A DNA stretch of 64,000 bases. It comes from Pseudomonadota bacterium (lineage in GTDB: Bacteria; Bdellovibrionota_B; Oligoflexia; Oligoflexales; CAIYRB01). Shown piece after piece: positions 39,472 to 42,931 of this stretch. The notes under the pieces were generated by a model. The model had not been told where the DNA came from. It was given only the letters and a program-made list of their open reading frames with translations, and searched no databases. The stretch lies in NCBI GenBank assembly GCA_026390435.1, contig JAPLFY010000103.1, forward strand, positions 1 to 64,000, in the 5' to 3' direction. The position numbers were made by a program, and so were the translations under genes. Numbering within the stretch: position 1 is the first letter of the stretch; the number at the start of each line of letters is the position of its first letter.

Positions 39472-40020
39472 ATGAAATTAAACAAGAGCTTTTGGTGGTT
39501 GGTAGGACTTCCCCTATGGTTGTTTGGAGGCCAAAGTTTTGCCGCAACATTGGATGAGGATCTGGGCGCTTTAGTTGGTGACTGGCAAGGGCAAGGAGGC
39601 GACGGCACAGGCATCAATATGAGCTTCGCTCAAGGGCAAGGCAATGTAGTGCTTACCGGCAGTTGGAAGATCAGTGGCGGTGGTTTTGCGCGCGAATCCG
39701 GCCTTAGCGTGCTGCGTTCGGGCGGCCTCTGTTTTCTCCTACCAGACGCCTCCCCATTCACTCCGGGTGCACAGCCTTACTCGCTGACGCGGTTACCGGG
39801 CGGCGGCTTGCGATTTACCCAGCTGCGCCACTTGGATGGCGATAAGGGTCCAAGTGTCAGTGTTGAGGAGGTACGTATCAGTAAACAGCGTGACGATGGG
39901 ACCCGCACTCTCCATTTGGGCACAAGCGAGACATTGTGCGCCGACGAAACCGCAACCGTCGGGAAAGTTTGTGGCGAGGGAACCAAGCAAGACTACAGCC
40001 TACGTAAGGTAAGCCACTAA
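39472..40020 (+). CDS. small exported protein of unknown function
   Basis: A 182-residue protein with a clean signal peptide ending LFGGQSFA (cleavage near residue 24). The mature part starts LDEDLGALVGDWQGQGGDG, resembling the opening of lipocalin- or THAP4-like barrels (a GxWxGxG-type pattern), and continues as beta-rich sequence. Three cysteines follow (GGLCFLLP, SETLCADE and VGKVCGEG). A GAGAGG ribosome-binding site is present. It stands alone between acs (divergent) and yebC. A periplasmic ligand-binding barrel is possible but not established. Confidence 0.65.
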   Translation: MKLNKSFWWLVGLPLWLFGGQSFAATLDEDLGALVGDWQGQGGDGTGINMSFAQGQGNVVLTGSWKISGGGFARESGLSVLRSGGLCFLLPDASPFTPGAQPYSLTRLPGGGLRFTQLRHLDGDKGPSVSVEEVRISKQRDDGTRTLHLGTSETLCADETATVGKVCGEGTKQDYSLRKVSH

Positions 40021-40054: not shown

Positions 40055-40175
40055 ATGCCATGATATTTCTAGTTGATTGCGCTAGGCCCGCATGAGTAAT
40101 GTCTAGACTCACTAGGTCGGGGACGTGGCTTAACAATTTCAGCCATGGCGCCTAAGTGCTTAAGGAGGGTTCGTC

Positions 40176-40901
40176 ATCGGAGCGCAATGGAAACACGCGG
40201 GAAAACAAGATTCTGCGGCAAGGCGTGGTCTCGTATTTGGTAAGTTAGCGAAAGAAATCTCGGTTGCGGCCCGCTTAGGCGACCCTAGCCCAGAGAATAA
40301 TGCTCGCCTTCGCGCAGCTATCGAGGCTGCCCGCAAAGCTTCGGTGCCTCGCGATACCATCGATCGCGCCATCAAGAAGGGCGCCGGCCTGACCGGTGAC
40401 GACGTACATTATGAGTTAGTCACCTATGAGGGATTCGCCCCACACAAGGTGCCGCTCATTGTTGAGTGCTTGACGGATAACAAGAACCGCACGGCTTCCG
40501 AAATCCGCGTCTGCTTTCGCAAAGAGGGCCAACTCGGTGCCATCGGCTCAGTTGCCTGGATGTTTGACCGTGTCGGTGTGATCGAAGCATCGAACCCAAC
40601 AGCTGGTATCGATAGCGAAGCAGCCGCCATTGAGGCCGGCGCCCAAGACGTCGAAGCTCTGGAAGAATCCGAGGTAGAGAACGGCCACGTGGGAGCCCGC
40701 TTCTACACCGAACCAACCGATCTCGATCTAGTCAACAAGGCTCTCACGGAAGGCGGCTGGTCCGTCTCCAAATCAGAGTTGAGTTACCGCGCCAAAAGCT
40801 TTGTCGAGTTGGCCCCAGACGCTCGCAAGGAAGTGGAAGATTTCCTCGGTAACATCGATGATATGGGCGATGTTCATAGGGTATATGCTGGAATCAAATA
40901 A
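40176..40901 (+). CDS. yebC: YebC/PmpR-family protein, apparent AUC start codon
   Basis: A YebC-family protein (a translation factor reported to relieve ribosome stalling in some bacteria, and a DNA-binding regulator in others). The full family sequence, 241 residues, begins GAQWKHAGKQDSAARRG and FGKLAKEISVAARLGDP, then SVPRDTIDRAIKKGAG, YEGFAPHKVPLIVECLTDNK and GSVAWMFDRVGVIE. The first codon consistent with this N-terminus is ATC at 40176. AAGGAGG (40162-40168) lies exactly 7 bp upstream, an in-frame TAA sits at 40161, and no ATG, GTG or TTG occurs between. The next in-frame GTG (40344) would remove 56 conserved residues. glpK follows after 32 bp. Confidence 0.88.
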   Translation: MGAQWKHAGKQDSAARRGLVFGKLAKEISVAARLGDPSPENNARLRAAIEAARKASVPRDTIDRAIKKGAGLTGDDVHYELVTYEGFAPHKVPLIVECLTDNKNRTASEIRVCFRKEGQLGAIGSVAWMFDRVGVIEASNPTAGIDSEAAAIEAGAQDVEALEESEVENGHVGARFYTEPTDLDLVNKALTEGGWSVSKSELSYRAKSFVELAPDARKEVEDFLGNIDDMGDVHRVYAGIK

Positions 40902-40933: not shown

Positions 40934-42484
40934 ATGGCTCAGTTCATTTTGGCAATCGACCAAGGTACGACGGGAACTACAGTACTCGTGGTCGATGTGA
41001 CGACGCCGGATGCCACCGCCATCGTCGGCAAGCAGACGATTGACTTCACTCAGCACTATCCGCAGACCGGATGGGTCGAGCACGATCTCGATGGCATCTG
41101 GAGTTCCGTGGCGCAAGCAGCTGCACAAGCTGTGGCGCAGGCAGCAGCTGCGCATAAAGGCTTCGAGCCAAAGCAGATTATCGCCATTGGCTTAACCAAT
41201 CAGCGCGAGACCCTGTGCGTTTTTGAACGCAAGACCGGCAAGCCCTTAACCCGCGCCATTGTCTGGCAGTGCAAGCGGAGTGCCGAGATCTGCAACCGCC
41301 TCAAAGCTGACGGCCTCGAGGCAACGATTAGAGCCAAAACGGGCCTGGTCCTAGACCCTTATTTTAGTGGCACCAAAATTACTTGGCTCATGGAAAACCG
41401 CTCCGACCTTGCCGCCCAATTACGGCAAGGAACAGCAGTGCTGGGCACGATAGACACTTACCTGATGGCGCGACTGACGGGCTCCGAGGCGTTCGTCACC
41501 GAAGCGAGCAACGCCTCCCGGACACTGGCCTTCAATATTCATACTGGGCAGTGGGACGCCGAATTACTCGAATCCCTATCCATCCCGAACCGCGACATTC
41601 TACCAGAAGTACTCGATAGTGCTGGTATTTTCGGGAAAACAAAAGGACTCAGCTTTCTCCCTGACGGAATCCCGATCAGCGGCGTTCTGGGCGACCAGCA
41701 AGCAGCACTTGCCGGCCAAACTTGTTTTGACGTGGGCGAAGCCAAATGCACGTACGGAACTGGTGCTTTTTTGTTGGCGAACTTAGGAGACCAGCCCTTG
41801 GTTTCCAAAGCAGGCATGCTGACTACTGTCGCATGGTCCCTAGCTGGTAAATTAACCTATGCCTTCGAGGGCTCCGCTTTTATCGCTGGGGCCGCAGTCC
41901 AGTTTTTACGTGACCAGATGCGCATCATCCGTAGCGCTGGCGATACGGAAGCGCTCGCAAGCACAGCCACGGCAGCGCCGGAAGTGTACTTTGTACCAGC
42001 TTTAGCGGGGTTGGGAGCTCCCTACTGGGACCCTAAGGCGCAGGGAGCTTTTTTTGGACTCACTCGCGGCACTAGTCAGGCGCAAATGGTACGCGCAGTC
42101 CTTGAGGGCATCGCCTTTCAAGTGCGCGAGCTGACGGAAGCTATCGCCCGCGATCTTGGCTCTCCGCTGCAAGTGCTGCGTGTAGATGGCGGTGCCTCAG
42201 CTAACAGCCTACTGATGCAAGTCCAAGCAGATTACTCCGGCATCCGTGTGGATAGGCCAGTAAATCTTGAGACCACCGCGTTTGGCGCTGCGCTATTTGC
42301 CGGACTCGGTATTGGACTTTACGCCAATCTCGATCAACTGCGTCGCGTACGCCGGACGGAACATATTTTCTCACCTGCGACGAGTGCCGCTGAGAAAGCC
42401 TCTATTTCCCGCCAAATTGCTGGCTGGCAACGGGCCGTCAAGGCGGTGCAAGTGTTCGCTGGTACAGCTACAGCTACAGCTTAG
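40934..42484 (+). CDS. glpK: glycerol kinase
   Basis: A 516-residue FGGY-family kinase making glycerol-3-phosphate. DQGTTGTT (9-16) is the N-terminal phosphate-binding loop. GLTNQRETLCVFERKTGKPL with RAIVWQCKR matches the glycerol-binding region, and YGTGAFLLANLG and LRVDGGASANSLLMQ are typical of the C-terminal ATPase half. The Gln/Ala-rich stretch SVAQAAAQAVAQAAAAHKG near residue 60 and the TATATA tail are unusual low-complexity pieces. It lies 32 bp after yebC. No glycerol facilitator or dehydrogenase gene is adjacent. Confidence 0.95.
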   Translation: MAQFILAIDQGTTGTTVLVVDVTTPDATAIVGKQTIDFTQHYPQTGWVEHDLDGIWSSVAQAAAQAVAQAAAAHKGFEPKQIIAIGLTNQRETLCVFERKTGKPLTRAIVWQCKRSAEICNRLKADGLEATIRAKTGLVLDPYFSGTKITWLMENRSDLAAQLRQGTAVLGTIDTYLMARLTGSEAFVTEASNASRTLAFNIHTGQWDAELLESLSIPNRDILPEVLDSAGIFGKTKGLSFLPDGIPISGVLGDQQAALAGQTCFDVGEAKCTYGTGAFLLANLGDQPLVSKAGMLTTVAWSLAGKLTYAFEGSAFIAGAAVQFLRDQMRIIRSAGDTEALASTATAAPEVYFVPALAGLGAPYWDPKAQGAFFGLTRGTSQAQMVRAVLEGIAFQVRELTEAIARDLGSPLQVLRVDGGASANSLLMQVQADYSGIRVDRPVNLETTAFGAALFAGLGIGLYANLDQLRRVRRTEHIFSPATSAAEKASISRQIAGWQRAVKAVQVFAGTATATA

Positions 42485-42565
42485 GCTACAAGTCCGAGCA
42501 TGTCTTTTCCCTTTGGCTTGACCAATGGCTAGGATGCCGCAGTCACATAAGTGGGAGAGACTGAA

Positions 42566-42931
42566 ATGGACGACTTGGCATTTGCTTATCATCGTAAACT
42601 AGATCTTAAGTTTGAGGAGGCTGATCGCCTCGCCGCTCTACCGCACGCAGCGAGAGAGTTATACCGAAGGTTGTGTGTACTTAGGTTGCGACTTGCCAGG
42701 GACGGTCGCGTACCTGCCTATCAAGTACTGGCTAACCAGGCATTATTGGCACTTTGCGAGCAAAGCCCTAGTGATGAGGAATCACTGGTGCGCATACGCG
42801 GCTTCGGCCACGTCCGCATGCGGGCATACGGTGCTGAGTTTCTCGCGGTAATTAATGATGCAACGCACCCGCGACTTAGTCTTGGAGGCTTAGCCAGCAT
42901 TGGCAGGAGTGAAATCCAATGCGATACTTGA
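42566..42931 (+). CDS. stand-alone HRDC-domain protein
   Basis: A 121-residue protein starting at ATG 42566 (GGGAGAG upstream; an in-frame GTG at 42551 precedes that site). Residues about 28-100 match an HRDC fold: LYRRLCVLRLRLARDGRVPA, YQVLANQALLALCEQSP and LVRIRGFGHVRMRAYGAEFL. HRDC domains bind nucleic acid and normally form the C-terminus of RecQ helicases or RNase D; here no helicase or nuclease domain is fused or adjacent. The gene ends 3 bp before the permease start, suggesting co-transcription with it. Confidence 0.72.
   Translation: MDDLAFAYHRKLDLKFEEADRLAALPHAARELYRRLCVLRLRLARDGRVPAYQVLANQALLALCEQSPSDEESLVRIRGFGHVRMRAYGAEFLAVINDATHPRLSLGGLASIGRSEIQCDT

Follow-up and report, generated by a model that had tools for sequence, protein, structure and literature searches.

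In E. coli, infC and pcnB start at AUU, a near-cognate codon that is discriminated against by IF3. Further weak starts are the AUA of ccpN (S. aureus/B. subtilis) and the AUU of the staphylococcal cvfC1; in S. aureus reporters grown in poor medium, conserved AUA/AUU starts with an extended Shine-Dalgarno (SD) sequence reach about 10% of the AUG level (PMC13009471). In vitro, IF3 lowers the yield of fMet-peptide at weak third-base pairs, with AUU/CAU falling to 31.1% at 1.5 µM IF3 (PMC10158994). In B. subtilis and S. pyogenes, YebC-family members take part in translating proline stretches (PMC11990639, PMC12234827). Here, we describe a gene of this family, relatives of whose product assist stalled ribosomes, that starts at AUC.

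The gene occupies 40176..40901 (+) of the window, i.e., the whole 64,000-nt stretch of DNA analysed, and encodes 241 residues of the YebC/TACO1 family, PRK12378 (NF009044) subfamily. Its protein scores 146 bits against PF01709 (cut-off 27) and, with residues 7–71, 80.9 bits against the N-terminal domain PF20772 (cut-off 36) in Pfam. In NCBIfam, it scores 239.4 bits against NF009044/PRK12378 (cut-off 196), where residues 2–240 align to profile positions 2–236 and profile position 2 falls on residue 2 of the AUC-started protein; the scores for TIGR01033 and NF001030 are below the cut-offs. Moreover, solved YebC structures are matched by sequence (1lfp, 2.1e-41; 4f3q, 6e-39; 1kon, 2.4e-35). The profiles PF01709, PF20772, and NF009044 and the structures support the YebC assignment of the initial annotation. 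The NCBI name for the family is still transcriptional regulator. A PF01709 search of the genome returned yebC as its single match, the sole YebC/TACO1-family gene found.

The yebC start site and its counterparts in relatives

Read directly from the window, the ATC start codon lies at 40176..40178 (+). It is preceded by the SD sequence AAGGAGG at 40162..40168 (+), which together with position 40161 forms the 8-nt match TAAGGAGG in the stretch TTAAGGAGGG (40160–40169), and a spacer of 7 nt (40169–40175) connects SD and ATC. Directly after the ATC follow GGA GCG CAA TGG AAA CAC, the first five of which encode the family N-terminus GAQWK. Upstream, a TAA at 40161..40163 (+) closes the frame, and only GGA GGG TTC GTC stands between this stop and the ATC. 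Downstream, the frame spans 241 codons up to its stop (40899–40901). The first canonical in-frame start is the GTG at 40344..40346 (+), codon 57 counted from the ATC, and no in-frame ATG, GTG, or TTG occurs upstream of it; a mechanical ORF caller opens yebC at this GTG. Hence, the initial annotation had described the locus correctly, with an ATC 7 bp past AAGGAGG and ahead of GAQWK, an in-frame stop at 40161 without a canonical start in between, and a next usable GTG that removes 56 residues.

A protein search for yebC in 56 relatives gave matches in 52. Starts were read at 30 located matches (L002–L031), 18 of which are GAQWK-type genes with residue 1 aligned. At the aligned start, nine of these 18 genes carry ATC and nine carry ATG. 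The ATC genes come from all six genomes of the window's own genus (g1, G000–G005) and from three of the five genomes of g20, a genus of another family (G027, G033, and G036); G030 and G039, which complete the five, gave no match to a GAQWK-type yebC. Intact ATG-start genes, all more distant, are present in G041, G026, G032, G029, G013, G024, G038, G042, and G006, and these homologues place the ATG exactly at the codon aligned to the ATC of the window. G006 belongs to the family of the window genome, and its yebC is 63% identical.

Two pattern scans extend this picture. In 58 genomes of the class/phylum, 24 matches comprise the nine ATC genes, ten ATG yebC genes, and five unrelated places. The ten ATG genes include a broken one (G040:C193:12986-13679), whose frame is interrupted by stop codons and which was excluded from the selection analysis and the tree. 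Searching GTDB r220 contigs for SD and ATH-GAQWK, with GGAG required 5–10 nt upstream, gave 27 stretches in a scan that may omit records near the window's own and is not a full census. Seven of them are yebC and come exclusively from g1 or g20, in part under the titles Oligoflexaceae or Oligoflexus. The remaining 20 matched internally or by chance. Among MAGHSKW-type YebC genes, an ATH start was seen in none of the 58 genomes of the phylum.

The codon comparison proposed by the initial annotation therefore has a clear outcome: Close relatives have ATC, not ATG, and with ATC in nine of nine orthologues from two genera the AUC start of yebC is genuine. A sequencing or assembly error for ATG might be considered given that the genome is a draft of 153 contigs, as nearly all genomes compared here are draft assemblies. 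However, the ATC occurs in nine separate assemblies, seven of which are also represented among the GTDB contigs under their own records, and many synonymous differences surround the identical codon. Since the relatives carry the same ATC, we rejected such an error, whose probability is negligible.

Selection on the N-terminus and constancy of the start codon

A start at the GTG of codon 57 or at another internal codon, leaving the N-terminus untranslated, would agree with this GTG being the first canonical start in the window genome. However, codons 2–56 are under purifying selection. Between G000 and G002, they differ by 11 synonymous changes and one non-synonymous change; between G000 and G036, 38.8 of 40.8 synonymous sites and 19.2 of 124.2 non-synonymous sites are changed. 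Between the genera, pS in this segment is 0.80–0.95, near saturation, at a pN of 0.15–0.19, close to the pN of 0.16–0.18 in the rest of yebC. Selection on codons 2–56 thus resembles that on the remaining gene, which argues that the N-terminus is translated. Moreover, the first canonical codon varies from codon 19 to codon 57 among the nine genes, G005 and G027 lack one at position 57, and an internal start would cut PF20772 (residues 7–71). On account of the N-terminal selection and the shifting canonical codon, we do not regard the GTG as the true start, and internal initiation was rejected as extremely improbable.

The nine ATC genes all have a strong SD, with a match of 6–8 nt at a spacing of 6–7 nt. 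In comparison, the match in the ATG genes is 4–7 nt (Mann–Whitney p 0.028, with rows that are not independent and relatedness uncorrected). For these matches, a standard anti-SD was assumed, as the 16S gene was not found in the window's own assembly. The leaders of the nine ATC genes align poorly between genera. Their consensus RNA fold around the start is weak (−6.5 kcal/mol), neither a conserved structure nor a shared leader was found in these nine leaders, and the scan for sigma-70 promoters gave 0 sites. Likewise, the residues encoded ahead of the ATC lack conservation; at position −1, the nine genes read V, V, A, A, A, A, T, V, and D. The leaders also bear on whether the frame could be entered from an overlapping upstream frame by reinitiation or frameshift, with AUC not serving as start. 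An ATG in another frame lies shortly upstream in G000 and G002, but no frame is evidently common to the nine leaders, whereas the SD and its distance to the AUC remain constant at 6–7 nt. For these reasons, upstream entry was rejected, being very unlikely.

When the start codon was left out of the yebC tree, a single branch with moderate support (76/83) set the nine ATC genes apart from the others, corresponding to one state change. The ATC start thus probably arose once, in the ancestor of the nine-gene clade. Since G006 has ATG and belongs to the window's family, while g20 has ATC and belongs to another, the gene tree departs from the assigned families. Transfer of yebC between lineages is one possible reading of this pattern.

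The gene neighborhood of yebC is fixed in all six g1 genomes, in the order of a gene on the other strand (presumably acetyl-CoA-synthetase-like in the window), a small gene without Pfam match, yebC, and an FGGY kinase. In the window, the small gene, whose place is kept across g1, lies at 39472..40020 (+) and ends 155 nt before the AUC, and the FGGY-family, glycerol-kinase-like gene follows downstream at 40934..42484 (+). None of the g1 flanking genes has a match in the g20 yebC flanks. As g1 and g20 share the ATC despite their different neighborhoods, the start travels with the gene rather than with its neighborhood or leader. Apart from this, the ATG of the FGGY gene is located 11 to 39 nt past the yebC stop in the six g1 genomes, and the two genes possibly share one transcript. 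Further downstream in the window, 42551–42931 encodes a small protein made up largely of an HRDC domain (57 bits), with no helicase part.

Is the start codon more constant than other codons of the gene? Between g1 and g20 genes, pS is about 0.7–0.95 overall and thus near-saturated. Of 139 degenerate, amino-acid-invariant columns, only four show the same codon throughout the nine genes, and of eight Ile columns, none does. As so few invariant columns keep their codon while ATC is kept in nine of nine genes, the start varies far less in its third base than ordinary codons do; with nine genes sharing a tree, this is a comparison and not a p-value. The observation bears on the main rival explanation, in which AUC is the true start but merely tolerated, fixed by drift in the ancestor, with the strong SD sufficing and no regulatory meaning attached. 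The single origin of ATC on the gene tree, the strong SD in the same genes, and the failure to find a regulatory RNA structure at the start or in the leader all agree with such tolerance. However, the third base is unchanged in all nine genes at a pS of about 0.7–0.95, where 135 of the 139 comparable columns vary, and ATG is only one C-to-G change away. We therefore regard tolerance as unlikely, although it carries considerably more weight than error, internal start, or upstream entry.

Initiator tRNA, IF3, and AUC use in the genome

The tRNA search gave 42 matches; 26 of the 30 located ones were passed through ARAGORN, and 11 others were pattern-scanned only. In the loci scanned, we found three CAT tRNAs, one of which is initiator-type and ordinary, as well as one ordinary GAT tRNA-Ile, and saw no changed initiator tRNA reading AUC (GAT initiator). 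Given an ordinary CAT initiator and no GAT initiator, the simplest reading is that fMet-tRNA binds AUC with a third-base mismatch, helped by the strong SD.

The IF3 gene is present in all six g1 genomes. Judged from SD and spacing, infC of g1 most likely starts at TTG in six of six genomes (AGGAGA-N9-TTG; G000:C7:7417-7593; L143–L148), so that there is no sign of the classical, AUU-based feedback by IF3. The likeness to infC and pcnB and the regulatory role suggested by the initial annotation consequently hold only in part: They fit the conservation pattern of the yebC start, but a self-regulating infC with AUU or AUC is most likely absent from g1. The N-domain of IF3 scores about 51–71 bits in families f1–f11 and 110–118 bits in f12–f13; initiation in this order may differ, judging from the low scores. 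EF-P is present in 54 of 56 genomes, and its distribution shows no visible link to the AUC start in these 56 genomes. G005 gave no match, and EF-P of G027 comes in two pieces near contig ends (C192 and C255); both cases possibly reflect assembly gaps.

To see AUC use beyond yebC, ATC starts were scanned in 464 kb with 415 called genes, about 11% of the window's own genome (4.28 Mb, 153 contigs). There, yebC alone has a long, strongly coding, and SD-preceded stretch behind ATC. The two other ATC candidates are 9-codon extensions. Among the weaker ATC candidates, one that we take to encode a DHH-type protein possibly has a GTG 9 codons further on. Within the 464-kb sample, AUC use looks gene-specific.

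A weak start, probably retained by selection, and its known relatives

Taken together, we favor, at a probability of about 0.7, that the AUC start is real, decoded by the initiator tRNA, helped by the SD, of single origin, and kept by selection to limit YebC synthesis. The ordinary initiator tRNA would decode the AUC as fMet, and the strong, well-spaced SD would rescue the weak start. Selection would retain this start because it limits synthesis of the YebC-family protein, and the yield of yebC would come to depend on how strictly IF3 guards the start codon and on the conditions of initiation, much as for infC, pcnB, and ccpN. We infer fMet decoding, low yield, IF3 dependence, and the benefit of low yield, of which the parts on yield and IF3 are carried over from other species and from AUN codons other than AUC. 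A regulatory meaning of the AUC is likely, as suggested by conservation and by analogy. More tentatively, and with doubt prevailing, the AUC might link stalling relief by YebC to how initiation proceeds. More YebC would then be made at scarce IF3 or reduced initiation fidelity, and a single base, retained in both genera, would couple initiation stringency to elongation rescue.

To our knowledge, conserved AUC starts have very rarely been documented, and we found no earlier report of an AUC start on yebC in the open-access full-text literature. Gene callers restricted to ATG, GTG, and TTG miss the yebC start and would cut most of the N-terminal domain. Moreover, with a translation-factor family and near-saturating synonymous divergence, the gene is a natural example well suited to the question of what makes cells keep a bad start codon.

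E. coli infC and pcnB resemble yebC as translation- or RNA-related genes with a near-cognate start, whereas yebC has AUC instead of AUU and is not infC. The YebC2/YebC proteins studied in B. subtilis and S. pyogenes as translation factors belong to the same family as the window protein, which has the N-terminal, second, and third domains; the term "start codon" is absent from the main text of either report (PMC11990639, PMC12234827). Close parallels are also ccpN and cvfC1, which, like yebC, combine a conserved non-AUG start of the AUN type with a strong or extended SD and keep this start across related species (PMC13009471). In contrast to these genes, yebC uses AUC, encodes a YebC/TACO1-family product, and belongs to an unrelated clade. 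The features typical of infC, pcnB, and ccpN recur in yebC, with a conserved near-cognate start as well as a strong SD at proper spacing in all nine genes. By its sequence, yebC joins the genes with weak conserved AUN starts; it adds the codon AUC to AUU and AUA, and an unstudied clade to those already represented.
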